From contig JAVTLE010000003.1 of the NCBI GenBank assembly GCA_033439295.1, positions 1,922,001 to 1,986,000 on the forward strand: a stretch of DNA of 64,000 bases, given 5' to 3'. How positions within the stretch are numbered: position 1 is the first letter of the stretch; each line of letters opens with the position of its first letter. Below, piece after piece: positions 1-61,195 of the stretch. The notes beneath the pieces were generated by a model. That model saw only the letters and a program-made list of their open reading frames with translations, did no database searches and was not told the DNA's origin. The DNA is from Deuterostichococcus epilithicus. Taxonomy: Eukaryota > Chlorophyta > Trebouxiophyceae > Prasiolales > Stichococcaceae. The translations under genes were made by a program, and so were the position numbers.

Positions 1-3000
1 ATGCTCGTCGTGGATGGTACGCAGCGCGCGCCACACGGCGGAGTTGCACTTGAAGCCCGAGCCGAAGGCGATCTGCCACACGCGGTCGCCGCGGTGCACC
101 GTCTTCTTGCTTTCGATGTTGGACAGCACGTACCTGCGGCCGGCATTTGAAGGCTCAACGGCTTGAAGTAGGCAGGACAGCACGTTTGCAGATCGCGAGA
201 GCTGGATGCCAGGGCCACCGCCACTGTATTCTTGTGTTCTGACAGCCCGTACCAGCCCCGCCGCCGCGTCATCAAGCCCTGCGCCACTCAGCCCGCTGCA
301 GCTCCCAGTCACGAGACCGCGAGCCCGTGCGGGGCGCAACGCACCCTCGAGCCGGTGAGGGTGCAGAGCACCAACACATGTGAGGCAACAAGCAATTGCA
401 TAACGAGCAACAATTCCACAATAAACCTGTAAAGCACAAGAGTAAGACCCACTTTCATATAAAAGCGCACCAGATGGAGGACGATGACACGTTGCCCCAG
501 CGGAACAGCGCGTCCTTGGACGGCTGCACGTGCTCCGGCGACAGCAGCAGCTGCTTCTCGATCTCCGCAATCACGCCGGCGCCGCCTGGCCGCAGTTGGG
601 GGAGGCTCGACGTGTTCTGAGGCAGGGCATCGCAAAAGCAAAACGAGCATGCATCAGTCAACAGACAGACACGGCACACCAGCTTCTTCGGACTGTGGCG
701 GACTGGCAACCACAGCTTGTGCAAGATTTGAGGAAATTCAAGGGACGTGGCAGGTCCAGCGCCCACCCACCGGTGTGTATGCAGAAGTGCTCGAAGGCCA
801 GTTTGAAGTCTGGGATGTATGGCCTGATGTGCTTCATTCGCAGGCCCTGCGGCATGGTGGGCGACGCAAATCAGTGAAAATCAGTGATTGTTGTGCACTG
901 TCAGCAGGTTTGTGCACCCTCAGCAGCTGTCGTGGCTTGATGATGCAGTGCACGATGACGCACAAGGTGTGGGTGTATGGCGGAGTTCATCGCACCTTCC
1001 TGCAGATGAGGTTCACGAAGAAGAGCAGCTGCAGGTGCCGCACAACAAACACATCAGGTGTCAATGCCATGCCACAATGAGGGTGCAGTGGGTCTGCTCT
1101 TGAAGCGTCAACAGAGGATCAGAGCGCCAGGTCAGGTCGACGCAGAGACGGAGCAGCACAGGTCTGGGGCTGCACATGATATGCAGTATGAAGGCGCCAG
1201 ACGGACCCACCTGCTCGCTGAGGGGCAGCACCATGGGGCCTAGCGTCGTGATGTTGGCCTTGAGGCTGCCGCCCGCAATGGCCATCAGGTCCCGTGACAG
1301 GTGCACGCCCACCTGCCATTGCACGTGCGGACGGGGCTGGCTCAGGGCTCTCGAACCCGGCATGAAGCTGCCAGGATGGGCTCAGGGCTGACGCCCGACC
1401 CGGCACACAGGCTGACGGCACACAGGCACTCCCTGCAGCGCCGGGGGCAGCCGGGGCCAGCGACCCGAGCCAGCAAAGCAGCAGACAGCCAGACGAACGT
1501 CATCACGGGGTCAGAATGTTGTCCGCAAACCATAACAGGCAACAGTTGATCGCGGCACACGACGACGTTCTGCTCGAGATCCACGCTCAGGAACCATGGT
1601 GATGGCGGCCATCGTGGCCGATCAGTAGATGGGAAGGCCAGCTCCGAGTCGTTGTGCAGCGTACATCCACTGTACACAAAACAATCACACCTAAAAGAAC
1701 AAGCACACCTTGCCGTCCTCGTCCTCACGCTGCACGACGCAGCCGAAGTTGGCATCGGAGGCGCCCATGTGCGTGCGCACCGTGTGCAGCAGCTCGTACT
1801 TTGCCGTCCACCTGTCCCGCCGCCTGCGGTGAAACAGAATCAGAAGGCGTTCAATGGGTGTTTTGCTGTCCGCAGCTCGTGCTGTGCTGCCGGCCTATAC
1901 CGGCGCCTGCACAAGAGGACAGTGGCCAACTCGGATCAAGTTTTGGATCCAAAGGTGATCCGTGAATGCGTGTCTGTGTGCAACAGCTCATCCTTGGCAG
2001 TCCACCTGTCCCGCCGCCTGCGTGCGGGGCAGGTTGTGCCGAGTTGGACCAAAATATCAATTCCAAACCCGGTCTGCCAATCGACTTGGGTCCCACACGT
2101 TGCTACTCACAGCCGGCCTTCAATCATCAGACTCTGCTGCTGCTACAAATCCGAAATAATGAAGGGAGAGAATCCTCGCCCATTGCTGTGTGATGCACTG
2201 CGCAGGCGCTGGCAGGCTCGCTGGCTAGCGTCGCCGCGTGCTCCGTGTCTCTGAGATGCTGGCAGCCGCCCATGGTCTAAGCCAGCAAAGCCAGGCCTCA
2301 CACGGCGTGATGTGCGCGTGCACAAGGGGATCGGGGAGCCTGGCAAACTTTTGAGGAGGAGCGAGACGGAGGGGAGGCGGAGGCGGGAGGCAAGGGCGGG
2401 ACTCACTTGTTGGACAGCACCATTGCGGCACCGCCGATGCGGAACAGGCAGTTGGGGATGAGCATGGAGCGCTCCTCGCCGAAGTACCAGTTCTGCGTGA
2501 TGTTCTCGGTGGACACCACCAGCGCAGTGGCGTTGGGGTACACCTGCGGACAGCAGCTATCAGAAGTCGACCAAGAACATTGGGGTTATCAGCCATATAG
2601 CAGTTTGCGGAAGATGTGAAGACGTGCAGATGTGAAGACATGGAAGAAAACTTCTCCAAAGAGATGTGAATGATTCTTGTTGGACACCACCAGCATCGTG
2701 GTGTCAGGACCACATCCGCAGGGCAGCCAGTGGCGACAGCAGCCCTAGCCAGAGGTCTGGTGGTATGACTGGAAATTAGATGGTTTGGACATCGCATAAA
2801 CCTGCTGGGGCTGCCGATCGGGCCATGCTCGCAAGCTTCTCCTGAGCGGATGCCCGCATTGCGCAGACATGTTTGGCGGCTCTGATGCTCAGGGCGAGCT
2901 GGCTGATCGTGCCGCTCCAGCAGCGGTGGCGCCCAGACGGGCTGCCCAGTGAGGTACTGCCCCACAGGATTTCTCATGCGTCACCTAGCATGTTGCACTT

Positions 3001-5356
3001 TGCATGCCTGCAGCTTCCCGCGGGCGAGGCCAACGACGACGACGCATTGCTGCCCGATTCGCTGCCCGATTCATAAGGTCAGGCCAGGTCCCAACTCTTA
3101 TGGCAGCTGGCTTGCAGCAGCCATGGCCTGCAGCTGTGCACCTGCAGCTGCTCGCGTGCGAGGCCGATGGCGATGACGCCGGCGGAGCAGCCCATGCCGC
3201 CCAGGTTGTACGTGATGGTGTCGGAGCGCATCTTGAAATGATTCACGATCATCGCGGACAGGCTGGGGGTCGGGTTGAACAGCGAGCAGTTGACCACCAA
3301 GATGTCGATCTGCGCGGATGAGCAATGAAATGGACCGCTGGCGCTGAACAGCGAGCAGGTGACTATCAGGATGTCTGTGCATGCGGGAAGCCGATGATGA
3401 AAGACCATCCTCATCACGACCCTGGGTGCAGCCTTCGCAACATGTGACTCCTGAATGCAATCAGGCCCGCAACTAGGCCCTTATCCTGCGGCCACGGTCA
3501 CGGAGCACAATGCCCGACACCCATCTGTGTGCTGCACGGCATGCTGCACAGCCTCAAATCGATCTGGACCCGACACACGCACGGCACTCCTTGCGCACCT
3601 GGGACGCACGGAGCTTGCACTTCTTCAGCACCTCCGCGACGCTCTCAAAGATCACCATCTCTGCCTCCTCCCGGGCGGTGCGCATGTTGATGTTGGGCGG
3701 CCACACCCGCACACCTGTACGCAGAGTGCAGACACTACTGACTACCCCGCTTGCAGGGTGCGACCTCCTGTAGCCCGGGAGGGGGGGAGTGGGGTGCCCC
3801 AGTTGGGTTCTCTGCCCAGCTGCGCCGCACGCACCCCCGGCACCAGCAGCAGCTGCTTGACTCCGCAGCAGCCCGCCTGCCGCCGCCCCAGCGCCGGCCG
3901 CCCATGCGCCAACTGTTCCGAAGCCCCGCCAACCTGCACCCTTCCCCTCGCTGGAAAGGTCGTGCCCCCAGTCTCAGCTCGCCAGCAGGAGGCGGAACGC
4001 GCGAATGGCCGCCCGCCGTCGCACATGCTGCACACATCGGCAGCGGCAACCCACCTGGCGGCAGGTATGTCTCGTCGCCCAGTCCCGACTTGTCCATGAT
4101 CCGCTCCTGGAAGTCCATGGCCCTCTCGCTGAACACCTGTGTGCGGTTTCGCAGGGTTGCATAAGGCACAGCAGGCGAATCCGAACTGTTCCGATGTTGT
4201 GTGCTGTGCCAGCTGCTGGGACCGCCTCACTGGTTGCGTCTGCGCTGCGACCGGCAGACTTGCAGGAGGGCCACAAAGGGCGACAGCGTGAGTGAGGCAT
4301 GTGCGCACCCCGGATGCTTTGCTGAGCTCCTTGAAGCGGTCGCGCGTAATTTTGAGCCTGCAGCAGCAATAGCTCAAAACCTATGAAAGCCCCACATAGG
4401 TGGCGAAGAATCTTTCAGCTTATATGCTCGTCAGATGAGCAGGCCGCAGGCATTGAGAACGATTTTTGACAAGGGAGCACTCACTCAGCTGGCGGCTTGA
4501 AGACGTGGAAGTCGCGCAAGTAGACCGGCTTGGCGCGCGTCAGGATGTAGGTTAGTGCCAGACAGGTCAGCAGCAGGCTGCACAGGCAGAACGTGATCTG
4601 CAGGGTGCACACATGCACGTTGGCATATGCAGCAAATGTTGGTCTCGGCAAGTTGCCTCCACAATGCTGTCGGCCTGCTGCTGCTGGCCAGCTGCGGCAC
4701 AGTCTGCCTTCCGCATTGCACTCGGTTGGTGGCCATGCCAGACTGCTTCGACAGAGCTTCAGCACGGGCTGGCTGCCGCCACTGCGCGCCGTTGCTGCGG
4801 CCGAGACATGCCAAACCATTCCACTCACCAGGTTGAACTGCACATTCGTGTTCGACGCCGATTGCCAGATGCTTTTGAGCTCGCCACTCTTGCCCATGTT
4901 GAGTAGCTCGAGCTGCGGGGGCGGAAGCACAACTAGGTGTCACAACGCAGTTCAGCAAGCAGCAGTACTCTCACTGGAGGTTCATGCTGCACCATTCTTG
5001 CAGCCAAGAGCTGGTCCACAGTCGGACAGCCATGAAGGTTGCAGCCTGGAATGCGCACCGCTGTGGTGATGGCAACCGGCACCAGCAGCAACGTGAGGAA
5101 GTGCGTGACCAGCACATGGTAGCCCCTGCACACCAATTGAGCAGTCAAGACCGCTAATGAAGTGACTGGACAGGTCTCGCAGTTCAATCCGCGCAGGTTC
5201 GGCCGGCATGGAGCATCAGCACAGCACTTCTGCGCACCGCTTGACGTATTTCAGGGCGACGTCGCCTCGCCGGAAGTCTGCGACGAAACATTTGTGGTCC
5301 TTCAGCACGGACAGAGGTAGAGCTGGACTGGCGGTAGGGTGTTGCGCAGCAGTCAT
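1..5356 (-). CDS. KCS: 3-ketoacyl-CoA synthase (very-long-chain fatty acid elongase), 3' end outside window
   Basis: Condensing enzyme of the ER fatty acid elongase, joining malonyl-CoA to long acyl-CoA. Fifteen exons chain in frame: 5356-5238, 5125-5059, 4912-4829, 4597-4485, 4357-4309, 4136-4055, 3714-3599, 3309-3142, 2543-2407, 1823-1709, 1312-1211, 1028-996, 846-771, 585-471 and 133 to beyond 1. They give 503 residues, close to the usual 500-550, so little is missing. Two hydrophobic segments lie near residues 43-62 and 91-110, as expected for the N-terminal membrane anchor. The family triad is visible: Cys in GGMGCSAG (about residue 251), His in HFCIHTGG (about 419) and Asn in [12 protein letters not shown] (about 489). 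FAE1/KCS signatures such as [15 protein letters not shown] and GLGDETYLP are intact. The ATG at 5356 is the first in frame and gives a short soluble leader. Introns before exons 8, 9 and 10 hold echoes of the following exon. Substrate chain length cannot be read from sequence. Confidence 0.93.
1972..2021 (-). repeat. Intronic echo of KCS exon 10 5' edge
   Basis: About 50 bp copying the acceptor and the first codons of exon 10 (true copy at 1775-1828). Shared blocks include CGCAGGCGGCGGGACAGGTG and GAGCTG.TGCACAC. The echo keeps an AG but its reading frame has drifted from the true exon. It lies upstream of the acceptor that homology supports. Confidence 0.75.
2688..2735 (-). repeat. Intronic echo of KCS exon 9 5' edge
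   Basis: Degenerate copy of the exon 9 start (true copy about 2500-2548). Both share the block GCTGGTGGTGTCC followed by an AAC/GAGAA-like stretch. The acceptor AG is lost in the echo. Confidence 0.65.
3338..3392 (-). repeat. Intronic echo of KCS exon 8 5' edge
   Basis: Copy of the exon 8 start (true copy about 3270-3312) with the shared block TGCTCGCTGTTCA and a preceding CACAG. It lies 30-80 bp upstream of the used acceptor. Confidence 0.7.
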
Positions 5357-6194: not shown

Positions 6195-9100
6195 CTACAT
6201 GTCAGACTGACCTGCATGGCATGAATTGGGCACATAAGCAGCAGCTGGTTCTGCTGCTCTCAAGGTTGTGCGGGCGGGATGCTCAGGTATACATGCCACA
6301 GCCATGTCCAGCTGCCATGCACTGCGGCCGCGTGACGGCATGCGACAGGCACTGACAGGGCAGCGACGGAAGACTGGACGCTCACCCCATGCGCGCGCCT
6401 CCGCCTGCAGAGCAGTGGCAGCGTTCTGCGATTTGAAAAGCTCCCGCTCGAAGCCGTTGGAGCGGTCGACTCCGTCCCAGTGGCGCCCCGGCTTGATGCC
6501 GTAGCGATTTGGCGGCGCACCTAGGTTGCGCTTCAGCCAGCTGTGGCCCGGCACCTGCTGCGGCACCAGGAAGCCTGCGGGCAGCACCGGCAGCAGTCTC
6601 GATCAGCGCAGCCGCCAGGTGTGAGGCTGCGCTTCAAACAGCTGTAGCTCGGCCCCTGCTGCGGCACCTGGAAGCCTGCGGGGGCGGCGCCGGCGGCATG
6701 CTCAGACGGAGGCTGAAGGGTGCAGTGTGCACTGACAGGGGTGCGTGCCGGGACCGGCAAAGGCAGCAGATGCACAGCACAGGAGTGCAACACCACAGAA
6801 GCCTGCAGGATGCAGCGGCACATCGTGCTGTCGGTAAGCTCCTTCTCCTCGTGTCAACACAGGGCAAGCGGCCGGCCGAAGGGCCGAACACCGCCGGCCC
6901 GACGCCGCTGCCGTCGGGGCAGCAACATGCATGTGCAAAGCAGCATGCTTGAGACGGCAGCTGCGCAATGGTGCTTGCGCACAGGCACGCTTACAGCCGC
7001 CACTCACCAGTCTTCTTCTGCAGCGCGGCTGGCAGCACGGGCGGCGGCGGCCCGGCCTCCGCCAGCTTTTTCCGCGCCAGATGCGCCATGGGGTCCCCCC
7101 ACCGCACACGCTCCTTGAAGCTGGAGTCCGCGTCCAGGTCCGCCCTGCACAGTTCATGAAACCAAGAGTTTAGGACATGGTGTTACTTCTGCCCCAACAA
7201 CCCAAAACCCACCAGCTCAGCCCTACAGAGTGTGACGTTACAGCACATCGCGCTCTGCAGGCTCCAACAGCGCAGAGTCCAGCAGTGGAGCTCTGCACAA
7301 CCTCGCAGTGAGGCTCTGCAGGGCTTACGAAGCGGCACTCTGCAGCATGTTCACTCTGGAGCATTGTAAAGCCCGACAAGTCGGGCTCTGCAGCATCCAT
7401 CAATGATGTGCTGCGGGGCTCGGCGCCCCTCGGTCCCCGACGACCCATGAGCTGCACGCCAGAACCGGCAGCTAGGACAACATAATTGCCGGCCCTGACA
7501 CATCCGGGTGATGGCACATTGCCCGGCACACTGCTCGCTGCCGCGCAGCCTTCGGACACTGCCGCACCGCCAGCTCTGCTGAAGCGTGCCGCACGTCATG
7601 CTACACACCTGTCTCGTCAGTTCATTCTGCTTCCTGTTGCCTCTGCTTCCTGGTCGGACCGACAGCGCACCTGCTGCGGGCAAAGGGCTGCGCGGCCTGG
7701 GCGGCCTGCTCCGCACGCCGCGCCTCCGCGTCGCGCTGCTGCTTGACGCCGCCCGCCCACTCGGGCGCCACCCACTCCTTCGCCTTCTTCTCGGCATCCT
7801 TCGCGGCTTTCAGCTCCTCTTCCGACACCTCCTTGCCGCTCTTGTCGCGGTGCACCTGCAGTGAGGGGAGGCATGTCATGCATCAGCAGCTCGAACCTCT
7901 TGGGCTGCGGCTCTTGCGGCTTTCAGGCCCTCCGACACCTCCTTGCCGCCCCTGTCGCGGTGCACCCAGGGTTGCCGTGCGGGAAAGATGCAACATGTCT
8001 CAGCGGCTCAAACGGCTGCACGTGCCTCGAGGAACCATCTTCACAGACTGCCGTCACATTGGCTGGCCGCCCTCTGCGCAGAACGAGGAGACTGGAGCCA
8101 TCTTCCACCCGCTGGGTGTAAACTGTCGCTCGCTGCCGCCTGCCAGGCTCGTGTGAAGGTGACAGGGACTGCAACCCCACCCGCCTGCTGGCACCTAGCC
8201 TCATGAAGCTCAGACCCGGTGACAGAGGCCTCCAGGAAGCAAGCCGCTTGCACACCTTCCAGTCTGTCTCTCGGCCTCCACCATATCAAAGTCGTCCGTT
8301 TCAGCGTTGCGCTCACCGTCTTGGCATAGCGCCCCGTGACGGAGGCGTCCAGGGAGGCGAGCCGCTTGCGGTCTGCCTCCTTTTTGCGGATCAGCTCCTC
8401 CTGTAGCTGCTTCCCGGTCACCATGCCGGCCGCCGTGCCGTCCAGCATGCGCTTCTCCGCCTTTGTCCTGCGCATTCGGTTCAGTGGATTTGACACGCTT
8501 TCTCCTGAGAGTGCTAGGCCAGCTTCTCCTGCAGCTGCTTGCCGGTCACCATGCCCGCGACCGTGCCATCCAGCACACGCTTCACCACCTTCGTCCTGCG
8601 AACAATTGGTCAAGTGGTCTTGACATGTTTTGTTGTGAGAAAGCCGGGTCAACGCCTCCAGCAGCTGCTTTCCGGTTGTCGTGCCGGCGGCCGTGCCGTT
8701 CAGCACGCGTCCTTCCGCCTTTGTCCTGCGCTCGGCCGGCAGGCACATCTGCTCACTGGGTGCAGCCAGCGAGGCCGTGTTGTGCCAGGATACATCTTCA
8801 GGCACCCGTTCTGGTCGAACGGGAGTCTGATTCGAATCTGGGCGCAAGTGTCCCCACCTTTGATGCAGGTAAAACTGCAATCAGTTGACCAAAGCAAAGT
8901 TGGTTTCACACCTGCGGGGTGGCGAGGCGTCTGGCGAGCCAGCCGCGGCCCGCTTGCGCGGCGGGCTCAGGTCTGCTGATGCGCTGCGGTCGCGTGGCTG
9001 CACGCCCCGCCGCGGCGGCGAGGCGTCTGCGTCTGAATCTGCGGCGGCTCGCCGCCTGGACGGCGATGCATCGCTGGCGTCAGAGTCGTGGCGGCCCGCT

Positions 9101-9918
9101 GCCGCAGCGTCGCCCCGCCGGGGCGGAGACGCATCATCGTTGTCAGAGTCATGCCGCTGCCGCCGCCGCGGCGGCGAAGCATCATCGTCGGAGTCATGCC
9201 GTTGCCGCGGCGGCGAGGCGTCATCATCAGAGTCATGGCGCCGCCGCGGCGGCGAGGCATCATCATCAGAGTCATGGCGTCGCCGGTGCGGCGAGGCATC
9301 CGAGTCGTGCCGCTGCTGCCCGCTGCGCCCTGCGTCAGGCTCCGCCGCTACCCAGCCGCTGCCGTCCCCCCGCTCGTAAAAACCGCGCTGTGCCTGCAAA
9401 TACGATCAGGAGCAGGCCTTTTAATTTTACATCTTGTCGAGTTGCCACGTAAGGTGCAAGAACGTCATTTAATCAATAGAAGTTGCAGAAGGGGGCAGCA
9501 GGCTGCGCAGTCCCACCGTCTCCAGCTGGCGCTTGATATTCTCGGCTTCCTCCTCGTTGGCAATTATCGGCGCCACTGCAGCAAAAGTCCTCAAGCTTTG
9601 AGGGTCAGCAGCTGATCCTGATGGCAGGCAAATCGGTGATGAGAGCTGGCAGACGCTGACGCAAGCATCGGGCGGCACCAGGAACTCACACTCGTCGTCG
9701 TCGTCTGGGTCAAGTGCTGCCGAGGGTGCTGCGAATCCGGAAACATCCTCATCCAGAATGCGCACGCCGGCTGCGGCCGGCTTCGGCTTTTTCTTCTTCT
9801 TTTTCTTTTTGCCGTCGCCGTCAGAGGTGTACTTTGACAAATAGTCCTGCAGGGCCTTGTTCACAGGCGGAGTCGCCTTGGTGTCTGCACCTCTCAGGGA
9901 AGACTTGCCCGAGAACAT
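6195..9918 (-). CDS. BUD13: BUD13 homologue, RES complex splicing factor
   Basis: Subunit of the RES complex (with Snu17/RBMX2 and Pml1), which helps activate the spliceosome and retain unspliced pre-mRNA in the nucleus. Eight exons chain in frame to 482 residues: 9918-9690, 9575-9517, 9393-8912, 8467-8317, 7855-7671, 7144-7008, 6574-6386 and 6211-6195. Features in order are an N-terminal LQDYLSKY motif, a run of eight lysines, a central array of [12 protein letters not shown]-like repeats, the conserved TGKQLQEEL helix, a VHRDKSGK block, [11 protein letters not shown], and the Snu17-binding C-terminal region [20 protein letters not shown] ending in SDM. The last exon is only 17 nt; it restores the family's terminal Asp-Met. 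Exon 2's donor is inferred from frame only. Three introns carry copies of flanking exon edges. Confidence 0.92.
6618..6680 (-). repeat. Intronic echo of BUD13 exon 7 5' edge
   Basis: About 60 bp nearly parallel to the true exon start at 6515-6580. Both begin CGCAGGCTTCC and share GGTGCCGCAGCAGG. If translated it reads [17 protein letters not shown], against [17 protein letters not shown] in the true exon. The acceptor AG is kept. Confidence 0.85.
7895..7967 (-). repeat. Intronic echo of BUD13 exon 5 5' edge
   Basis: Copy of the [12 protein letters not shown] start of exon 5 (true copy 7790-7860), here [13 protein letters not shown] followed by CTGAAAGCCGCA. The preceding acceptor AG has been lost. 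Confidence 0.85.
8216..8252 (-). repeat. Intronic echo of BUD13 exon 4 3' part
   Basis: Copy of the end of exon 4 (true copy 8328-8375), sharing the GGCCTC.GTCAC pattern and CTTGC.TCC. It lies downstream of the true donor, the opposite side from the 5' echoes of the same exon. Confidence 0.6.
8529..8734 (-). repeat. Two serial intronic echoes of BUD13 exon 4 5' edge
   Basis: Two copies (8529-8602 and 8654-8734) of the start of exon 4 (true copy 8395-8472). Each retains CGCAG followed by GAC.AAGG, and the GGCACGG.. and ACCGG.AAGCAGCT segments. The outer copy can be read as [20 protein letters not shown], and the inner one needs a different frame. Homology supports only the third, innermost copy as exon. 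Confidence 0.85.
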
Positions 9919-18047: not shown

Positions 18048-18223
18048 TGCGGGCTGAGGGGGCAGGCAGGTGGCGGCCGCCAGGTTCCTGTTTGCAGCGG
18101 CCATTTGTGCATGGCTGCAGCGCCTTTCAATCTTGATCCCACATTCAGGACGAGCGGTGTGGGTGCCAGCTGCATCGCTCGCTCTCGTTGTTCGTTGTGC
18201 ACACAGCAAAAACCACGCCCGTT
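18048..18223 (+). other. Kinase 3' flank
   Basis: Short non-coding stretch between the kinase stop and the repeat array. It probably belongs to the 3' UTR. Nothing else is seen. Confidence 0.5.
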
Positions 18224-19223: not shown

Positions 19224-19455
19224 GGACTCCACCATTGATCCGAGCTCACATTCCAACAATTCAAATGGGAGTGAATGACAATTTGACATACAACGAACGA
19301 CTGACTGACAGACGATATGACGACAACATTGCACCAACGACGCCGCACTGACATGTTTGCGCTTGAGGCAAGCCCGAACACATCGTGCGACGCAGCCTTG
19401 TGTTCCAAAAATTTTCCAAATATCTGGAGTTGCCTCACGCTGTGCAGGCAATCAT
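19224..19455. other. Convergent intergenic spacer
   Basis: About 230 bp between the repeat array and the stop of the RAF2-like gene. No feature was seen. Confidence 0.5.
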
Positions 19456-42719: not shown

Positions 42720-45700
42720 ATGGGAGCTGGAGGAGCCAGTCAGATCGTCCCAGCTGCGGGCACCTCTGGCGACGCGATCGAGGGCGTGCCAATCGTGTAC
42801 GTCAACGGCAAAAGACATGTTCTACCGCTAGGCCGGGCAGAAGCGACACTCCTGCAATGGATACGAGGTACGCCGGCTCAGACCTAGGTGTGTCAGAACC
42901 ACAAACTGCTAGTGCACATTGTGCACAGACCTCTGTGCTGTCGGGGTGGGGGGCAGTTGAGTCCAGATGTGTTTGCATGCCTGCCTACTTGGGCGCTGTG
43001 ATGGTTGCTGGCGGCACTCACAGGTCGCTGTGCGGTGTCAGCCTCTGTGACAGAGCCTCACTCCGGAACCGATGCGTCCGGCCACGCTCCGCGATATGCC
43101 CAAAGACCTCGTTATTAGTGTCTCGTGCGTCGGAATGCACAGGATATCGCGCAGCTGAGGCCTGCTTTGCGAGTGCGAACGTCGCGAAATTCCCCTCATC
43201 CCTCGTGTCACTAGCCGTGCATGGCTTCTCGCGCCTCTTCTGCTGTACGCGGTGCCGTTAGATCACCTGGAATGGTCAGGATGCCTAACGTGGCCGAAGC
43301 CCACTGGTTCTTGTCCTGCACCTGCTGGAGCAGGCGCATGTGCCACGCCTGACAGCGCTCCTCTGCATTGCATGCTACACCCCAAGCTGATTTACCAAAC
43401 ACTGTGTTTGGAGCAGCTCTAAAGATACCATTTGATCAACAGCAGTGTCCGTAACAAGAAGCTGAGCAACCTCACATGCATTGCCGCAGAGCTGGGCCTG
43501 ACAGGAACCAAGCTCGGGTGCGCCGAGGGCGGCTGCGGCGCATGCACCGTCATGGTTTCGGGGCTGGAAGGGCCGGAGCGGCAGCTCACACACAAGGCAG
43601 TCAATGCATGCCTGTGCCCGCTGTACGCGGTGGAGGGCTGCCACGTCGTGACCGTCGAAGGTGGGCAGCAACCCATTCCATCTGCCAAAGGACTGCACAC
43701 AGGCTGCGGCAAGCACGTGCTTGCTGCGGGGGGCAACGGGACTGCGTGGAGCCTGCCTCGCTAGGCGATGCTCTCATTGTGAGCTCCCTGAAATCCGCCC
43801 GAACACCTCTGCTGTTGCTGACCCCGGGGTCGCATTGAAGCCATGGCAGAGCACGCTCGACCAGGTCCACATGGCCATGTCTGCATTGTGCGCAGGCATT
43901 GGCAGCGGGCGCGCTGGGCTGCACCCGGTCCAGGAGCGGCTGGCGCGCGCGCACGGCAGCCAGTGCGGATTCTGCACCCCAGGTCAGCATGTCATGCATG
44001 GCTGCACTCTGATGACGGCCCAGCCCGCCCGCCCAGATGTCAGCGGTCCCGCAGCCCAGGCCCCATTGCAATAGCCTGCCTGCACGTGACATACCTGCAC
44101 CTGAGATGCACAGGGTAGTGCGTGGCCTGTGGGAATGCCCCCTGCTCAATGCATCTGACGTGGGTCAACCCCCGAGTCCAACATACCTTCCCCTTCAGGA
44201 TCTCGCATGCCTGCCCGCAGGCTTCGTAATGAGCATGTACAGCCTGCTGCGCTCCAAGCCGGAGGCGCCATCTGAGGAAGACATCGAGGAGGCGCTGGCT
44301 GGCAACCTCTGGTGCGCTAGTCCCTGGCTCTGGAGGCCCTGTCACATCGCATCCTTTCGTCTGCACGGTCCATGCCGGGCTCAGAGACAGCGACAGCGCT
44401 TCTCAAATGTCCGAACTGGCCGCTGCTGCCCATCTGGCATGGTCGTCTGCCTGATGTGTCACCCGAAGCACGTGTTTGCGACAGCATGTGCCGTTCGACT
44501 GCGAGCAGGACGTCTCTGCAATGCAGCCGGTGCATGGGCTGCTGCCCCATCCTGGCGCCTCTCAGGCCATCCCGCAAGTGGACTCAACAGTCTTTGTTTT
44601 GGTGCAGCCGCTGTACGGGCTACCGCCCCATCCTGGACGCCTTCAAGGTGTTCGCCAAGGTGGAGGCCGGTGCCTACACCGAGGAATCTATTGAGGCCAG
44701 CCTGCGGACGGAAGACGCAAACAATGCGGTGGGGGAGTCCAACGGCGCCGCCAGCGGCCATGGCAGCAGCTGCAGCGACGACTGCGGGCACGAAACGGAC
44801 GGCACAGCGGCGCCAAACGGTGTGGAGACGCACGGTCTGAAGGTGCGCTTCAACCCTGAGTACGACTTATTGGGGAAGCGTCCTTTGTGGCCCTGACTGC
44901 CGTCATATATAAGCAGCCAGACGCCGTCCGACAGTGCGGCCAGCACACCACTGCTCTCTGCCGTCGCATCATTCTTTCGCCATCAACATGTCTTGCCGCA
45001 AGGATTCTGAGCCTGATGGCATCGTTTGCAGGTGGATGGGGCGGACCCGACGCTGCCGCGCGGCAACCCCGGTCGGGGAAAGGACGGCAACAACCCCTCC
45101 TCCAATAACCCACCACTCAAGAAGGACCAGAAGGCATGCCGACTTGTCTCCCCTGGAAACGGCCCCGCAAACCCATCAGTGTCCGCCATGAATTGACTGC
45201 ACACTCACCGGGCTGCCCGCCCGGCACCTCCTGCATACCATTTTCAAAGGCTTCGAGTCTCAGATGAACACTTACTGGAATTAGAGACAAAAGGTTCCGC
45301 CGCTGTTGCGTCCGCCAGGTGTGTCCGAGCACGGGGCGGCCCTGCGACTGCGGTGCGGGCGCCGAGAAGGGCACCAGCTCAGACGACAAGGACGCGATGT
45401 ACGGCTCTGGCATGCCGCACCGCCCGACGGTGAGCTGCCGCGCCGCCTTCACTCTGGCCCCTGCAGCCGGCTGCGGCCGGCGTCGGCCGTGCATCCTGCG
45501 GGCCATCGTGAAACATACTGCCTGCCACAAGACATAAGCTTGCACTTTACCACCGTTTCCAAGCTGCTCTCTGTAATAAAACGTTGAGGTGGGCATGTCC
45601 ATGGATGATGACGCATACTGTGTATGTGCGCAGGCGGAGCCGATCTTCCCGCCGGAGCTGCGCAAGCGTGTCGCGGCCGAGCTGCACCTGCCCGGCAAGC

Positions 45701-48700
45701 ACGCCACCTGGCACAGGTAGGGGGGGCGCCACTCATCCAGTCTGACGCAGCCAGCAACGGCCCTTGGCCCTGCTGCAGCCCTGACGCACCAGCTCTGCTG
45801 CAGCCGTGCCAATGGCCGGTCACCACCCAGCCGGCTGCAGGAGTGTGCCCAAGCCACATTGTGCTGAGCTGGTTGTCGAGGTTTCACGCCAATACTGTCA
45901 TGCGACTGCAGGCCTACCAGCCTGGCGTCGCTGCTGGCCCTCAAGGCGGAGCACCCGGAGGCGAAACTGGTGGTCGGCAACACAGAAGTCGGGATAGAGA
46001 TGAAGTTCAAGGCCATGATGTACCCTCACCTGATCGGCACCACCCACGTGCCGGAGCTCAACCAGGTACCTTGTCCAGCAGTCTATTCCCTCTCCCACTT
46101 CAGCGTACTGGCTGTCACCATGCCCTGCTGCCCGTGGAGACGAGCATGCGCCCTGGACGCTGACAGCGGACGAGCAGGAAGCACCGACCACCTCACTGAT
46201 GGAAGCACTCAAGAGTCGGAACGACACCGGTGTCATACAGATTTCGCACAACTGTCACTGATCCCATGTCGCGCCCCATTGTGCAGATCGAGGTGCTGGA
46301 GGATGGGCTGCGCGTGGGCGCCTCGGTGCCGCTGACGACACTGCTCAAGACGCTGCGCGACCAGATCGCGACGCAACCTACCCACAAGACGTCCACCTTC
46401 CATGCGGTTGTGGAGCAGCTGCGCTGGTTCGCCGGGGTGCAGGCGCGCTCTCTTCCCTTTCTGGCAGAATTGTTGTCACGCCAAGCCGGTTGTTGCCGGC
46501 CTTCTGAGTGCATCATGCCTGCGTTGCCCATCATCATGTGCCTAGAATGACGGCTGCTGCATTGGGCCGCCCGCCAGCTGGGAGCTGGCTGCATGCCAGA
46601 GAACAGGGCCACTGCGCCATTCACATGCCGTGCTGAAGCAGACCTCAGCCAGCAGCTCGGGTGCCATGCTCCTCACATACATCCTGCGCAGATCCGCAAC
46701 ACCGCGAGCCTGGGCGGCAACATCGTCACGGGGTCGCCCATCAGCGACCTGAATCCGCTGTGGATGGTCGCGCGCGCCACCTTCACAACGGCCGGGCAGG
46801 GCACTGAGTCGCGCACGCTGCCGGCGCGCACCTTCTTCCTCGGCTACAGGCGCGTCTGCAAACCCTCAACCCTGAGCTCACCCCTGAAACCCAACTCTGA
46901 CACTGCAGGCACGCACATCGACTGAGCCTCCTTGCAGCGCATTTGGAGCTTGTGCACAGAATCCCCCTGCAGGCCACAGTCACTGCTGATACATCAACCC
47001 TCCCTGCCCTGCTCAGGACGAGCATTGTCAAAAACACCGTCAAGAGTCCGTTCGAGCCGTAGGATCACAGGAACTGCTTGAAATCACCGAACCCCACCAT
47101 AAGTGACCTCATCCCCTTGTCGCGCTTGCAGGAAGGTGGACCTGCAGCCGCACGAGGTGCTGACGTCCGTGTTCATCCCCTTCACTGCCAAGAACGAGTA
47201 CGTCAAAGAATTCAAGCAGGTGCGCCGCAGGTGGACTCGTGCAACATGACATTGAACAACCCTCCAAAGTGATGTCAAACAATAACGTGTGTGTCTAGCG
47301 TCCGTCAAAGCCTGTCATTGTTGGCTCCCTGACGTCAGGCCACTCAGCAATATTGTAAAGCACAGTGCAGATGGTCTGATGATGCGGTGCAGGCGCACCG
47401 ACGGGATGACGACATCGCCATCGTGAACGCCGGAATGCGCGTGCGCATGGGCCAAGACTCCTCAGGTGCATGTCGCTGCAGCCCTTACGGCGTGTCAGAC
47501 TTCCAACAAAAGCATTTCAGATATGGCGCATGGAACAGGTAGGAACACAGGCATTGCGCTACAGTGCATGCCCCGCTAGTCCTGCTCTGCGACACCAATG
47601 CGTGGAGTCGGGCTTGCTTCCCAGCGGACTTCAGCAATTATATCTGTGCTTGGCCAACCAGGTGCCTGGGTGGCGGAGGAGGTCGAGCTGGCCTTCGGCG
47701 GCGTGGCGCCCAAGGCCATCACGGCGCCGCAGACGGAGGCGGCGCTGATGGGCAAGCGCTGGGACCAGGGGCTGCTGACCGCCGCGCTGGAGGCGCTTGC
47801 CACTGACGTCAACATCACCCCCAATGCACCCGGTGCGTCCGCCCTACAGGCCACTTGGCTTCAGAACAACTGTCCCCAGTCTCGTGTGGCACTCGTGTCT
47901 CGAATGCATGATGTGTCATGTCTCTGGAGCGCCCTGCTCGGGGTTCTGAGACTGCGCTGCCCTGAACAGCCCCGAACCCCCATCTGCTGTGCATGCAGCG
48001 CAATGGGCTGCCCTCATGCACCGCAGGCGGCATGGTGGAGTTCCGCCGCAGCCTGGCAGCGTCCTTCCTGTTCCGCTTCGTGGTGCACGCCAACTATGCA
48101 CTGGCGGTGAGACGCTGTCGCCCTTTGGTGGCATCGGCACTCTGGATACGGCGTGAAGTGCACGCCTTCATGTATGCATTGGCTTGCATGCACAGTCAGT
48201 GGCCACTCGCATTAACAGGACTGATAAGGGGGTCGCTGATGGCAGCTTCAGTGCATAGAGTAAGCCGGAACCTCATCCATATGCGTGTTGAACGGTTTGG
48301 CAGGCGGACGAGGAGAGCTTCACGCCGGCATTCCCGGAGAGCTTTGCGTCGGCCAATGTGACATACGAGCGCGCCCCCTGCCGCGGCTTGCAATACTTCT
48401 CTGCGGTGCCAGACGAGGACGTCGTCGGCAAGCCCTACCGCCACCAGGCCGCAGACATGCAGGTGTTCCCTGCTCCCGGCCTCGCCTCTCCTTTTCTGGT
48501 CCTTTCTGCCCTCGCTCATGGGTCCCGGTAGACTTGATCAGAACCTTGCTGCTAAGCCCTACTGTGACATGCAGATGCATGCCCCTGCTGCCGCTCTTTC
48601 TCCACCTTTCCTTGCCCTGCTCTCCACTTTCGTCAGGCTCTTGAAACTCCGACATGTTGTGGTTTGCAAGCCCTACTGCCGCCAGGCCGCAAACTTACAG

Positions 48701-51700
48701 CCGGCCCCAGCTCCCGCCTTTCCTCTGCTTTCCTCCCTCCTGCATTCGCGTTTCACGGTAGTCCTGCAGAGTCGGCGAAGTTATTAGCAACCCCCACCGC
48801 CACCAGGTTGCTCAGATGCAGGCACCTGGCACCTGTCATAGCGCTGATGCTAGACAGCTCATGCACACGAGCAGCAGGGTGGCTGCGTGTCCGGCGGCTG
48901 TCTGCAACCGGGGCAACCATCATTCAGCTGGTCCCTCCAGCTGGGTCCTCCACAGAGTCGCTCGAGTTATGACTGCCCAGGCCGTGTCGGTCACAGGTGA
49001 CAGGCGAGGCGGTGTATGTGGACGATATGCCGCTGCCGGCAAATGCGCTGCATGCGGTGCTGGTGCTGAGTACGCGGCCGCACGCCAAGCTGCTGCGGGT
49101 GGACGCCTCCAAGGCGCTCGAGGTACTATCAGCCGCCGCTGCCATTGCTGTTGCGGCTGCCGTTGCTGTTGCAGCTGATGCCACTGCTACCATGGCTGCT
49201 GATGCTGGCGCTGGTGTTGCTGTCTGTGCTACATTGTGCTGTTGCACCGCAGCTGCTGCTGCTGCGCAAACCTTCATTGTGCTTGTTGTGCTTACAAGTT
49301 TGCGGCAACACAAGCCGATGGTGGCTGGGCCTCTGATGGAAGGGTTCCATGATATATGCCACAGGCAGAGGGCATCATGGGATACTTCGACCACCGCGAT
49401 GTGCCGGGCGACAACCACATCGGAGCCGTTGCCCATGATGAGGAGGCAAGCACGGCTGCTTGTTGTTTTCTCCGGGTCTTGGAACAGACAGAATTCTGCA
49501 GCTTCCTGTACGGCCAGCAAATCACATGGAGCGATCAAACAGTAATCTCGCAGCTCGGGTGCTGCGGCCTGCCGGATTGCGCAGCCGGGCAATGCATCGC
49601 CTTCATCAACCTGGACATGGGCAGCACAGTGCCCAGGACGGCAACTGACGGAGTTTCATCCGCTGGGCTGCAGGTGTTCATTACGTCGGAGGTCACCTGC
49701 GTCGGGCAGCCCATCGGCGTCATCGTGGCAGAGACGGAGCAGCAGGCCCGCCTCGCCGTCAGGTGATTCCCCCTCTACTGGCTCCAAGGGTATCGCACTC
49801 AGTGCCGTCCCGATGCAGACTCAATCTGACCGCGCTCCCTGGGGGCGGCTGGTGTGGGTATGTGCCACCCACTCCTGCAGAGGACGCACAGCTCGCCGCT
49901 CAATCTGCACGCCTTCTCACACCTTTGTGTATGAGCTGAACATCGGAGAAGCAGCCTCAAGCCCTGGACTTGGGAGCGTAAGCCCTGCTACACCCTGCGG
50001 CAGGCTAGTGGAGGTCGAATACGAGGACCTGCCGTCGGTGCTCAGCTGCGCCGATGCCATCGAGGCCAACAGCTACTTCGAGGTGCGACACACCCTATCT
50101 TCTGTCCCATTCCCTTCCGTTCGTGGGGACGGCACCCGTGTGTTCCCTGCCTTTTCGCCACAAAATCCCCATCCCCTTAGCCCAGCCAAAGCCCAGTGCC
50201 TCCCGCTGCAGCGACTTGAGCTCGGGTTTCAACACCTTGTTCATTGTTCAGCAGCAAGCCGGAGGACCCACAGCCCCCATCGCTGACCTGTGTTCTGCCT
50301 GTGTGTCTGCCAGGGCTGGGGACACCGCATCGACTGCGGCGACGTGGAGGCGGCGCTGGCCAGTGGCTGCGACCATGTGCTGGAGGGCGAGGGCCGCGTC
50401 GGCGGCCAGGTGCACGGTTTTTGCACTGCATCAAGCAACAACTGGTTCACACCGACCGTTTCCCGTCGCATCCAGGGCCTCCTGAGTGCGTCCTTCGTGA
50501 GACGACCATAGTCGGTCTGGCAGAGGTCTGTCAGTGGTTCGCTGATGCGGCCGCCCTCAGCTTGGGTAAACGAAGCACAGGGCCTCTTCCAAGCTGTTCC
50601 AAGAAGTTACTCAGTCGCTTAGTTCAAACTGCTGCTATGATTGCAGGAGCACTTTTACCTGGAACCGCACTGCAGCATCGTCATCCCCAAGGTCACACTT
50701 CTTCCTTCCATCCTCGCCTGTGCAGCGGCGTCGCGCATCCTGCTCTTTGCCGAGCATGATTCGCATCTCTGCTCCCAGTGAGAGGCATAAGTCAGCGGCG
50801 CATTGTAGTCGCAGTGGTGCTCCTGCATGTCAGCCGACCTTGTACTTACTCGCTAGTCGAATCTCTGCAGGAGCACGACGAGTACGAGGCATATGCGTCA
50901 ACACAGGTGATGCCACACATCCGCACAGACGATCTACAGTCACCACATGGTCCTCAGAGATCTGTGCTGTTCCGGGTATCCAACACAAAACGCGGCTGTC
51001 ATCGTCAGCTCCGCCGGCTGCTGATCGCCCAGTGACAGCACATGCTGTCGCCGTAGCTCTGGAGAGTTGAACCCTGTGCTGGCTGCCGCAGGCACCCACC
51101 AAGCATCAGGTCACGCTGCACGGCGTGCTGGGCGTGCCTATGCACAAGATCGTGTCCCGCACCAAGCGCATTGGCGGCGGCTTTGGCGGCAAGGAGACCC
51201 GCTCAGCCTTCGTCCAGGTGTTGATTTCTCAAACCTGGGGCCTGTGCTGAATATAACTTCTTTCCAGCACTACTGTCCAGCGACTCACTTCGGCATGGTG
51301 CACTTGAAGTGCACTGCGTGGCGATGCAGGCCACACATGGCGCCCCCCTGCGCGCTGAGCGTCTGTGGCAACTAAAACGGTTTCATCAGCAAGGTTCCAG
51401 GATGACAGCTCTGTTGCCGCCCCCTGCGCAGGCGGCGATCGCAGTGCCAGCGTACCACACGCGGCGGCCCGTGCGCATCGTGCTGGACCGAGACGAAGAC
51501 ATGCAGATCACCGGGCAGCGCCACGCCTTTTACGCCAAGTACAAGGTGGCGGCTCCTGCGACCCGAACGCTTGAACATTCTTCGCTAGTCCGGCCATCCG
51601 CAGCATCCCGGCAGCCCTCTCGACCCCGCGCCGCAGCACACGGTGCAGCATCCCAGAGGCGGAACGCCTCCTGCAGCTGGAGTGGCCCTCGAATTGCGAG

Positions 51701-54700
51701 CAATCACAGCCTGCTTGGCATGCGTGCGTTGTATCAAGCTTGAAGCTTGCGTGAGTTGCCACCCGTAAACACTCGCAAACGCGCCACCAAACTGCTGCCA
51801 ACGCCGGCAACAGGTGGGCTTCACGAAGGAGGGCATCCTGAAGGGCCTGGACGTGGACCTGTACTGCAACGCTGGCTGCAGCCTGGACCTGTCCAGCTCC
51901 ATCATGGACCGGGCGCTGCTGCACACCGACAACGCCTACCGCCTCGGCGCCGTGCGCGCGGTCGGGCATCTGTGCAAGACCAACATGGCGTCCAACACCG
52001 CCTTCCGTGGCTTTGGCGGCCCGCAGGCGCGGCTTTTTACATTCAAATAACAATCTGGCTCGTGATGCTCTCGTCTGACTGTCCACTGACTGAGCAGCAG
52101 CATCGACATGTCGCCTCCGACAACATCTTCAGCGGCATTGGCGGAACCAAGGATGGCAACGCTGAAGCGTCGTATGAGTTTGTCTGCAAGAAAGGTCGTG
52201 CACTTTGGTCTGAGCCCTGCACCCCCTGCCGCAGGGCATGATGTTCACGGAAATGTGGGTGGACCGCATTGCGCGCACGCTCGGCATGACACCTGAGGCT
52301 GTGCGCACCGCCAACATGTACGCGGAGCGCGACAGGACGCACTATGGCCAGGAGCTGGAGGCCTGCCAGGTCAAGCCCTGCTGGGAGCAGGTGTGCGGGC
52401 GGCCCCTTGATCCTCGTCGAAGCTGTTCAAACGGTTCGAAACTCTCTTGAAGCGCAATATGACTCACAACAGCCAGGAGCTGGAGCCCTAGACCCAAGTC
52501 AGGCCTGCTGAAAGCAGGTGCGGACTTGCTTGCTCAATCTTTAACAGATTGCACGTCCGTCCTGCAGCAGGGCCGGCGGAGTGCCTGTGGATGAGGCGGT
52601 ATTGTGAGAGCAGTGAGGGAGGGATGCACATGGTTGGGGGAGGCATTCAGCACTTGGGAGAAGGCTCGACCCGCATCTGAGCAGCTGCAGCGCCCCTGCA
52701 TGCACGGCCGCACTCGATCCACGCACACCGAGGGACAGCAGGACTGATGCTGTGACGCCCGCCCGCGTCCTGCCAGGTGCTGGAGAGCTCGGCCTTCGAG
52801 GCGCGGCGCGCGGCGGCGGGCGAGTGGAACTCGAAGAACCGGTGGCGCAAGCGCGGCCTGGCGGCACTGCCCACCAAGTTCGGCATCTCCTTCACCACAA
52901 AGTTCCTCAACCAGGCCGGCGCCCTCGTGCACAGTGCGCTGTTTGCTTTCGGATCCTCCTTCTAGAAACTGCTCTCAGATCCTCCTTCCAGATCCTGCTT
53001 CCAAGCCCTGGGGCATGGCTGTCCCTCGGGGTGCCGCGGCTGGCGCCGCACACCTGACGGCGCCGTGGCGCTGCAATGCTGGAGTGTGACTGAGCTCGGC
53101 AGCGGCGGCGGACGCGGCGCGCGTCCATGATGCCTGCACCCAGTGTCACTGTCCCTATCCTGCGGCGTCGCATGTGCAGGCAACTGTTCCTGGAAGCTGT
53201 CTGTCGATGGAAGCTGTATTGCCGACTGCAGTCTACACGGACGGCACGGTGCTGGTCACCCACGGCGGCGTGGAGATGGGGCAGGGCCTGCACACCAAGA
53301 TTGCGCAGGTGTGCACCTTGTTCAATACTGCCCCAATACAGCCTCGAGACCAGCATGAAAGTCGGGCTCGTATGATTGCGTGGCCTGCCTGCTCGGCCTG
53401 CGATGCTGCAACCATTGCCAGCAAGAGCATCGCCACTGCTGCCTAGCACTCCTTTGCAATGTGAGTGTACTGCAGCACTTGTGGAGTGGCTTTGACAATT
53501 GATCCTGCCGACAGTGAGGCTGCTGACACTGAGTCGGGTTTTGCTCGAAGCGCAGATTGCGGCGCACGACCTGTGTGTGCCGCTCAGCAGCGTGTACATT
53601 GCCGAGACGGCCACCGACAAGGTGCGTCAATGCAAGCAGCGTCCAAGTCTGCAGCATGGAAACCATGAGTCCAGGCCGTGATGAGCAAGCCGCGACAATG
53701 CATGCAGCGGTGAAGCCTTGCAGCAGACGCATCATGGGTCGTCGTCAGTGGATGTCACAGCGGGAGCGCTAAGCTTCGCAGTCGTGCCAGCGTTGACGTT
53801 CAATCATGGCGCGGTGCTCACACGAAGCGCGACAAGTCACCGCCCCTGCCTCGCGGTTCGAGCAGGGTAGCCGGCTCGCTGAGGCCAAACACTGAGCTAT
53901 CTTTCCGCTCACTGAACTCTCAACTTCAAAAGGAGAATCTTCCAGCCCGTGCCTTGCGTCTTTCGTCTGCAGGTGCCCAATTCGTCGCCGACAGCGGCAA
54001 GCGCATCCAGCGACATGTACGGCGGCGCGACGGCGGATGCCTGCGCGCAGCTCAATGCCCGGCTGGCGCCCTTCCGTGAGAAGCTGGTCGGCAAGAGCTT
54101 CGCGGTGCGGCGCCCGGGCTGGCTTGTTACTCGTGGCTCGTCCTCCCTGTGAAACCTAGTGCTCCGCCAAAACAGCGGCGCCCGCATCAGGCGCAGGTGC
54201 AGTCATGCACTTGCGGAGAAGGCGCCAGGGCACTGTCTGGCACTATGATTCCGAGCGGTGTGTGCCCCCGTGTTCGTGTGAAACTCATCGAGAGTGCATC
54301 ACCTTGCGACATTGCAGAGCGTGCAAGCAAGCCTGCACGCCTGCCGCGAGCATTTCGTCTGGTCCTCAAATGCAACTGTGCGCCAAGCAGGAGATAGTCA
54401 TGGCGGCGCACTTGGAGCGGGTGGACTTATCGGCGCACGGCTTCTACACGACGCCTGATGTCACCGGGTGCGTCTCCTTTCCGTTATCTGCCTCCTCTCT
54501 CGGCACCAAAAAGCTGCACAGCGCACAACGCCACAGCTTTCGCATACCTTTCTGGCGACTGCGCCTCCTGTGGCCTCTTGAGCGGGTGGACGACGGGCGC
54601 ATGTAACCTGTGGCCCTCGCACCCGGGCTTGAGTATCATTCTCGTGTTACGTCCTGGATAACCTGCCGGCCCTGGCCGAGGGCTGTTGTCGCCGCAACAG

Positions 54701-59335: not shown

Positions 59336-59379
59336 TGTCGGTTCTCTGCGGGTCGCCGCCCTTTTGCACAGAGCCGACA
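59336..59379. other. Imperfect hairpin between convergent genes
   Basis: TGTCGGTTCTCTGC pairs with GCACAGAGCCGACA at 12 of 14 positions, across a 16-nt loop. It lies just beyond the BADC poly(A) candidate. Function unknown. Confidence 0.6.
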
Positions 59380-59965
59380 CCCCAGCAGCTCGACCCTGCT
59401 TCACTTCGGCTGCCTGTTTCAAATTTGTTTTCATATGGCAATCGACCCGGCCTGACTGCAGCCTACCCGCCTGCGCATTGGCGTTTGTCGCCACGTTTGT
59501 TGTACAGGAGTGAATGTGGCTCTTCTGTTGTTTGTGGAACGGAGGTACAATACAGTGTTACAGCGCTGCAGACGCGTGTCAATTGTCTACACCAAAAACC
59601 TTGACAGCTCAATTGCAAGCTTGAAAGGGACATGTAGCCAGGTGAAAGGCTGCTCTCAATCCCTCTTCAAGCAGAGCGTGTCGCATGAATTGGCACAGCT
59701 TGAATTTCTGCAACCAGAACTAGAGACCATTGTGGGACGCATCCTCGAGTCAAGTGCCGCAGTAAGACCCGTCCGCACTGCGCTCACGCCTGCGCCCGAC
59801 GCCAACAGACGATATCAAAAAGGTAATCGCAATCCACATTGAAGGCGCATCAGTGTCGAGTCTAGCGTTCACACACGAAGCCTGGCAGTCCCTGATATGC
59901 GACAGGTACTGTTTGCATCCAGTCTGACGTAGCATATCCAGTTTGACACACTGTGCATGCACGAT

Positions 59966-61195
59966 TTAGGAGGATTCCTTGCAAAGGCAGCGTACCAAGT
60001 AGCCAATGGCGCGCAGGCCTAGCACGATGCCGACGGCGACGACATGGCCCTGAGAGCCGCCCACCAGCACATCCACCGCGGTGTAGCCTGCGGTTTGGGA
60101 TTAGGGTTGAGGGATTGACAACCAATCTTTTGGCACATCCACCGCAGTGTAGCCTGCGCCCGACAATGCTTCGCAGATCTCAAGGCAAGACATCTTTCAG
60201 GTTGGCAGCCGTGTCTGAACGGACGCAGGTGTCAAAACACCGCAGCACCTGCATGCGGCATGCATGTGACGCGCGTGTGAAACACCTCAGCCTCCGCGGC
60301 AGAGAAATGCGGGGGCGCGATGCGGGGGGCTCATCGCGAGGGACAATCGTGGGAGCGGCAAGGCAGCAGGGCAGGGGCGTGGGGCAGCCCGCACCTCCCG
60401 GGTCGCTGGTCGTGAGGCCCTCGCTGTCCTCGTCGTACAGCTTGAGGCCGGCCTTGGTGTGCTTCTTGGCCGTCGGCGCCAGGCCGAAGCGGCCCGCTGA
60501 CAGGAACAGCGCTGTCGAGACAACGAAGATCTGCAGCGGAAGATTGATGCGTGTGTATGCGGTTGCTTCGTCTGACAGACCGCAAGGTGCAATGCAATCT
60601 GGAGATGCACTGAAAGCTGGCGGCCAAAGAACCATGTGCAATCTGTTGCGGGCAGGCGCCAGTGCGCTCCAGACGCATTCCTGTAAGAAACATACTCACC
60701 ACATTCGTGGGCGAACCCAGGTAGCCTGCCCGCGTCACGACTGCCTGCCTGCTGCGTGGGACGGCTGCCTGCACAGGCAGCAGTGCACAAGGTGGTCGCC
60801 TTCCCGTGCACTCTGGCCGAGTACCACCGTGCTGGGTGCCAAGCGATGGTGCAATGCTGCTCCCGGCTGGTCTCCTTCCCAGCGGCACTGTGCAAGTCGT
60901 TGGTGCTCGCCAGTGACAGGCCATCCCGCGGACGGCCGCGCAGCATGCTGCAAATGCCCGGCTGTGCATCACGCCATCGCGCTGCTGTTGATCGCCTCGA
61001 TCTACACTGCGCCCGCTAAGCGGATCGCAGATGATTCAACCCCCGCCCGTGCTGCCCATGGTGCCCTGGCCGGCGTAAATCTCATCGGAGTACCCTGCGG
61101 CCATCCTGCCCTACCTTCAGCGCCGCGCGCGGCGCGGACGTCGCCAACCGGCTGCCCAGGAACGGCTTGGTGGTCATTGCAGTCGCTGACGCCAT
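59966..61195 (-). CDS. PSAK: Photosystem I reaction centre subunit PsaK precursor
   Basis: Small two-helix thylakoid membrane subunit at the edge of photosystem I that helps dock light-harvesting proteins. Four exons chain in frame to 127 residues: 61195-61115, 60744-60700, 60530-60395 and 60087-59966. The first 30-35 residues (MASATAMTTKPFLGSRL...) look like a transit peptide. The mature part has YLGSPTNV, first helix VVSTALFLSAGRFGLAPTA, the stromal loop with AGLKLYDEDSEGL, then YTAVDVLVGGSQGHVVAVGI and VLGLRAIGYL as second helix. The C-terminus is a little longer than usual (VRCLCKESS). The acceptor of exon 2 was chosen among three nearby AGs by frame. Confidence 0.92.
60126..60162 (-). 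repeat. Intronic echo of PsaK exon 4 5' edge
   Basis: GGCACATCCACCGCAGTGTAGCC in plus sense matches the exon start at 60067-60090 except for one or two bases. It lies upstream of the true acceptor. Sequence between the two copies resembles degenerate telomere repeat (GGATTAGGGTTGAGGG). Confidence 0.85.

Follow-up and report, generated by a model that had tools for sequence, protein, structure and literature searches.

How introns grow within genes whose proteins stay intact is the question raised by a 64,000-nucleotide stretch of the genome of the green alga Deuterostichococcus epilithicus (contig JAVTLE010000003.1, positions 1,922,001 to 1,986,000 of the forward strand; hereafter the window), in which introns hold degenerate copies of the edge of the adjoining exon, here called echoes. 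The original prediction, made from the window alone, named seven genes with at least 20 such copies and attributed them to tandem duplication across splice junctions. All seven genes do carry echoes, and about 25 copies, some of them weak, are now counted in the window (KCS 4-5, BUD13 4, RAF2-like 2, LON2 9-10, CtpA 1, XDH 4 and PsaK 1).

If the echoes were chance similarities, an exon edge would match the introns of other genes as often as its own. We made this comparison, which the original prediction had proposed, on 314 kb of the genome (the 64-kb window plus 250 kb from three contigs, C3, C6 and C13; the assembly has 46.8 Mb in 21 contigs and a GC content of 61.5%), scoring Smith-Waterman alignments of at least 32 between edges of at least 25 bp and their own adjoining introns. 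Matches in direct orientation were found for 45 of 1009 edges, against 5 of 20,180 pairings with length-matched introns of other genes, and the excess was present on each side taken separately: 25 of 504 5' edges matched the upstream intron (shuffled, 2 of 10,080) and 20 of 505 3' edges matched the downstream intron (shuffled, 3 of 10,100). The expected geometry, with 5' edges copied only upstream, 3' edges only downstream and all copies direct, was borne out by the absence of inverted matches between an edge and its own intron (0/1009) and of matches in wrong-side tests on exons of at least 120 bp (0/308 and 0/319, together 0/627); 3' edges compared with non-flanking introns of the same gene also gave none (0/5473). 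Echo-bearing introns number 41 of 511 (~8%, or about one in twelve), distributed as 16/111 in the window, 15/156 in C3, 8/168 in C6 and 2/76 in C13, hence 25/400 outside the window; the higher density in the window is expected, since the pattern was first noticed there. The 39 pairs with an offset (the distance from exon edge to echo) of at most 180 bp are spread over 19 of 67 genes. These data are solid evidence that the excess of exon-edge copies is real and reaches past the window. Density is uneven between the stretches, and LON2 alone holds 9-10 echo copies.

The genes were predicted with our own de novo generalised hidden Markov gene finder, which started from long open frames, was iterated on all 314 kb and converged on 67 genes with 511 introns (median, 220 bp) and on the splice consensus CAG/GTGCG for donors and TGCAG/G for acceptors (slash, junction). 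An exon-length penalty removed most of the zero-length exons and micro-exons that sat in echoes in the first models; 11 exons shorter than 24 bp stay. The models were checked in part by homology to PDB relatives and Pfam families. The XDH model (1338 amino acids, 36 exons) matches mammalian XDH over three long segments and, judging from ~27 residues skipped in that alignment, probably lacks one exon; the CtpA model aligns to the photosystem II D1 protease and the LON2 model to Lon proteases, with one LON2 donor ~23 bp off as judged by eye. Two echoes were taken as coding by the gene finder (LON2 exon 29166-29225 and part of the RAF2-like exon 19897-20146) and were reassigned by eye. KCS, PsaK and the D1-protease-like CtpA are plant-type genes. 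The echoes in the window, with positions counted from its first nucleotide, are as follows.

1782-2022, minus strand: KCS (Pfam FAE1_CUT1_RppA), acceptor edge (1782-1828) of exon 1709-1823 with echoes at 1865-1911 and 1976-2022, a repeat family.
3007-3375, minus strand: KCS, exon 3142-3309 with a donor-side echo at 3007-3045 (offset 134) and an acceptor-side echo at 3345-3375 (offset 69).
6523-6682, minus strand: BUD13 (Pfam Bud13), edge 6523-6581 with an echo at 6624-6682 (offset 101, 88%).
7821-7966, minus strand: BUD13, edge 7821-7856 with an echo at 7931-7966 (offset 110, 94%), the intron part similar too (p 0.008).
8387-8731, minus strand: BUD13, edge of the first modelled exon (8387-8473) with copies at 8515-8601 and 8645-8731, a full tandem array with a unit of 128-130 bp; the exon upstream of the array lies outside the gene model.
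19769-19959, minus strand: RAF2-like gene (Pfam Pterin_4a), donor edge 19889-19959 with an echo at 19769-19839 (offset 120).
19971-20151, minus strand: RAF2-like gene, two copies (19971-20034 and 20088-20151, offset 117), of which the second was modelled as in-frame exon and is likely an acceptor-side echo, reassigned by eye from the protein.
24368-24519, minus strand: LON2, edge 24472-24519 with a donor-side echo at 24368-24415 (offset 104, 92%).
26339-26494, minus strand: LON2, exon 26460-26561 with a donor-side echo at 26339-26380 (offset 114).
26503-26898, minus strand: LON2, acceptor edge 26503-26554 with three echoes at about 26636-26687, 26752-26793 and 26860-26898, exon confirmed by Lon alignment.
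28356-28495, minus strand: LON2, edge 28356-28390 with an echo at 28461-28495 (offset 105, 97% over 35 bp), exon confirmed by Lon alignment.
28970-29249, minus strand: LON2, acceptor edge 28970-29027 with echoes at 29063-29120 and 29187-29249, the latter modelled as exon 29166-29225.
31451-31657, minus strand: LON2, exon 31607-31733 with a donor-side echo at 31451-31506 (offset 151, 71%).
35651-35762, minus strand: CtpA, donor edge 35731-35762 with an echo at 35651-35682 (offset 80, 94%), exon confirmed by D1 protease alignment.
44522-44636, plus strand: XDH, acceptor edge 44603-44636 with an echo at 44522-44555 (offset 81), exon confirmed by XDH alignment.
48411-48822, plus strand: XDH, donor edge 48411-48463 with echoes at 48649-48701 and 48770-48822, exon confirmed by XDH alignment.
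52326-52489, plus strand: XDH, donor edge 52326-52364 with an echo at 52451-52489 (offset 125), exon confirmed by XDH alignment.
60067-60158, minus strand: PsaK, acceptor edge 60067-60092 with an echo at 60133-60158 (offset 66, 25/26 bases), the spacer between the two dissimilar.

Serial arrays of two or three echoes occur in KCS, BUD13, LON2 (two places) and XDH, with 83 to 133 bp between successive copies except for the first step in XDH (238 bp). The echo-bearing exons of XDH and CtpA and two of those of LON2 align uninterrupted to their PDB relatives, indicating that in these cases the genuine exon is the proximal copy, as had been supposed. At PsaK, the minus-strand gene lies under a long plus-strand open frame (60017-61212), a GC-rich shadow that led the gene finder to call an exon on the wrong strand. 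Upstream of BUD13, 39-bp GC-rich repeats in ~4 copies (9113-9300) are modelled as a small dubious gene.

The possibility that the pattern is an artefact, or has some other origin, draws on the facts that the gene models are de novo and that at least two echoes were wrongly predicted to be exons. The PDB alignments speak against it, as does a scan made independently of gene models, in which the same offset peak appears: offsets fell into two groups, 10-50 bp and ~80-160 bp, with few in between. Introner-like repeats are opposed by the finding of only 4 short hits among the 511 introns (314 kb), none within a gene. If the echoes were mRNA retrocopies or copies of back-spliced RNA, the flank past the echo should match the next exon or the other end of the same exon, respectively, and it did so in 1/38 pairs each (p<0.05). 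We consider origins of this kind extremely improbable.

What, then, was added to these introns? In the 39 pairs the offset averages 118.5 bp (standard deviation, 22.4) and ranges from 69 to 178 bp. None of the 45 exon-versus-intron events has an offset below 69 bp (the PsaK pair, which lies outside this count, as it and the pairs absorbed as exons do outside the pair sets below, has 66 bp), and 13 of 18 intron-intron events have offsets of 10-41 bp. The exon part and the spacer anticorrelate (r -0.51) and the standard deviation of the offset is below that of permutations (p 0.0003, 39 pairs); the offset is thus better kept than either of its components. Introns with an echo are longer (median, 332.5 bp, n=36) than others (215 bp, n=475; p 8e-10), also among introns big enough to hold an echo (p 1.2e-4). 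When the offset is subtracted, their median length is 218.5 bp (38 pairs, those of the 39 in which a flanking intron exists), compared with 215 bp in other introns (p 0.88), indicating a gain of roughly one offset per event. The predicted lengthening of introns is therefore observed, with a net gain of one offset.

This relationship also bears on whether the introns themselves were born when an exon segment containing AGGT was duplicated in tandem, and grew later. In such births the offset equals the length of the intron and the copy lies at its opposite end, whereas here the intron exceeds the offset by ~220 bp (median) and the echoes do not lie at the far end. The few cases in which offset and intron length were nearly equal involved spurious micro-exons in the first gene models. 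Donor and acceptor contexts do share CAG/G, and the repeats are direct and local, as this origin would require, but it appears very improbable. The process known from Rogers and from Hellsten et al. 2011, as it is described in the parts of PMC3443670 and PMC4974935 consulted, resembles ours in being a tandem-type duplication that leaves the protein unchanged and differs in the two respects just given, so the earlier judgement that the echoes are related to, and distinct from, that model was correct.

On balance, the echoes are probably remnants of old local duplications beside exon edges, in which the copy turned into intron and decayed. An old duplication would have added ~118 bp next to an exon edge; the exon-proximal splice site would have stayed in use, leaving the protein unchanged, the intron would have gained as much length as was inserted, and the extra copy, now intronic, would have decayed. 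It would have begun with a duplication of tandem type that spanned the junction and, at some sites, recurred. The exon part may have stayed alignable longer through protein constraint on one side, perhaps with gene conversion from exon to echo, and both copies would have lost their intron parts. Whereas the excess, side, orientation, offset, net length gain and decay are direct observations, these steps are the history that we propose for them. The one young duplication of this size observed supports such an origin:

34378-34537, minus strand: CtpA, exact tandem duplication within an intron, unit 79 bp, 97-98% identical, with ~2 bp shared at its ends.

Does tandem duplication followed by plain neutral decay suffice? 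The prediction that echoes carry a few intron bases beyond the junction held, but with a sharp limit: in 22 junction-reaching pairs the match drops to near background ~7 bases into the intron, on both sides. We compared the intron parts of the units in the 43 pairs with offsets of 60-260 bp and at least 12 exon bases (41 with an intron part long enough, and some from the same arrays). The intron part is significantly similar in 8/41 pairs (combined p 1e-4), and whole-unit duplication is complete in the BUD13 array. Homology runs past the junction in the BUD13 arrays, in LON2 at 26.5 kb, in CtpA at 35.6 kb and in XDH at 48.4 kb, and is full or nearly full in the BUD13 array at 8.4 kb, in CtpA at 35.6 kb, in BUD13 at 7.8 kb and in LON2 at 26.5 kb. 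One LON2 pair that seems to end 23 bp short of the junction ends, as judged by eye, 2 bp past the donor suggested by Lon homology, so gene-model errors blur the junction limit.

Several results weigh against old tandem duplication as the whole account. In 20/41 pairs the intron part has p > 0.5, and a neutral simulation matched on identity expects it to be significant in ~28/43, compared with the 8/41 seen. Ungapped matches end within -12 to +10 of the junction in 27/39 pairs versus 33% of those simulated, and the match rate at +8 to +23 is 0.33 (22 pairs) against 0.55. No indel rate tried (0.15-1.2 per substitution) repairs the neutral model; in simulation the flanks need to have diverged ~3 times as fast as the echo (twofold is rejected, p 0.01, and threefold is not), or else were never copied. 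Simulations with random positions (neutral tandem duplication, flank speed-up of 1-6, and straddling blocks with filler) were also tried, and none reproduces the observed end positions. Position-blind tandem duplication, if every event across a junction is taken to be tolerated and intergenic DNA to decay as introns do, predicts ~16 intron-intron and 22 intergenic detectable pairs, and the offset band shows 2 independent and 1, counts that leave out an intergenic 250-bp array, the LON2-series pairs and a 31-bp array; autocorrelation in introns or intergenic DNA likewise has no visible hump near 118 bp. The end of similarity at the junction is thus unaccounted for by plain neutral decay. The proposal of tandem duplication across the junction stands as to geometry and net insertion, but plain neutral tandem duplication is not sufficient. 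The 250-bp array (18220-19269) comprises four units, the first three 99% identical, which indicates a young minisatellite-like expansion and an assembly that resolves long near-identical repeats.

A copying process limited to the exon edge would produce the junction limit directly. Each event would have placed 20-90 bp of exon edge with up to ~10 intron bases, the block ending at the splice site, beyond ~70 bp of unrelated spacer. This model accounts for the sharp drop that occurs, on both sides, ~7 bp into the intron and fits match length, aligned fraction, gap rate and end positions well (47.1, 0.62, 0.030 and 0.70/0.03/0.27 against 43.3, 0.58, 0.032 and 0.69/0.05/0.26). It also agrees with a spacer that resembles the exon interior in 5/36 pairs at p<0.05 and the post-echo intron in 7/38, hardly above chance, and that has no local source within 3 kb on either strand. 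On the other hand, it predicts 5% significant intron parts where 8/41 were seen, and hence cannot cover all pairs; the arrays with wider homology do not fit it, and the offset is tighter than an independent block and spacer would yield. It would further require a process that senses the junction, through RNA or through tight selection on well-spliced inserts, and to our knowledge no mechanism for exon-edge-limited copying exists, which counts against it. We regard this copying as possible but unlikely. Somewhat more doubtful is its stronger form, in which a past process recognised exon edges on donor and acceptor sides, through splicing RNA or very tight selection on how inserts are spliced, and made inserts of ~118 bp that were locally templated only in the exon edge and 3-12 intron bases; if it were true, the introns would owe their growth to splice-aware copying, with blind slippage playing no part.

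A different reason for echoes to outlast their flanks would be function, as alternative or decoy splice sites or as exon parts under selection. The echo edges do look conserved compared with the flanks, but the offset is a multiple of 3 in 14/38 pairs, an open in-frame extension is present in 6/38, and in exact register GT is intact in 3/15 donor-side copies and AG in 10/24 acceptor-side copies. Among copies that reach the junction, the donor-side GT is lost in 5/8 (three as GC) and the acceptor-side AG is kept in 9/14 and lost in 5/14; the loss of donor GT possibly reflects selection against competing donors. Frame, stops and lost GT or AG, read from the sequence, argue against regular alternative exons, and the echoes are probably not in use as splice sites or exons. 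Selected function is accordingly an improbable reason for their persistence.

When were the echoes formed? The gapped identity of the 43 pairs lies between 0.70 and 0.91, and none is higher, a further difficulty for old duplication as a steady process, which would give some. Exon and echo differ at 0.162, 0.151 and 0.226 of first, second and third codon positions, respectively (401 differences at 2235 sites). Third positions seem to have changed in the exon too, so the divergence reflects time and not copying error alone. Steady birth would make young copies at least as common as old ones; their absence suggests that the echo-forming process has probably stopped or slowed. A search at the DNA level with LON2 found a paralogue by its exons only and hence no paralogous introns for dating. 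The intron growth described here is of the past, as no copy is recent.

The old duplications that we favour have relatives among known processes. Internal gene duplication, as Gao and Lynch reportedly described it in 2009, is local, occurs within genes and may cover exonic and intronic sequence. The echoes likewise form a direct local repeat within one gene with one copy in the exon edge, and the net gain in length equals the duplicated unit; they differ in that the units are short (~118 bp), lie at exon edges in 41/511 introns, and lengthened an existing intron, with no new intron shown. In the potato RdRp gene, a tandem duplication across an intron-exon boundary created a new intron and carried the branch site and polypyrimidine tract (PMC4974935, in the part consulted). 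That segment, too, spans the boundary, but the intron part of the echoes is mostly unrecognisable and no new intron is evident. Introners, as outlined in PMC9860276, are also a genome-wide source of intronic DNA, but the introns here share no sequence family. The suggestion that the mode might be undescribed therefore holds only in part: junction-crossing and internal duplications are in print (PMC3443670 and PMC4974935, as far as consulted), and what may be new is no more than the scale, the ~118-bp offset and the restriction to exon edges. Our literature searches returned no report of exon-edge copies in algal introns, nor of such a frequency, offset or junction limit, although Blanc et al. 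2010 (on Chlorella), Gao & Lynch 2009 and Hellsten 2011 could hold one.

For D. epilithicus there is thus good support for introns having grown through local duplication next to splice sites. Discussion of intron evolution has focused on gain and loss and less on growth, at least in the consulted part of one review (PMC3443670), and this one genome holds a fossil record of existing introns lengthening, with 8% of the examined introns still showing both the step and its size. Any genome rich in introns can be examined by comparing exon edges with their own introns, and how similarity comes to stop so sharply at the junction is a concrete question of mechanism.

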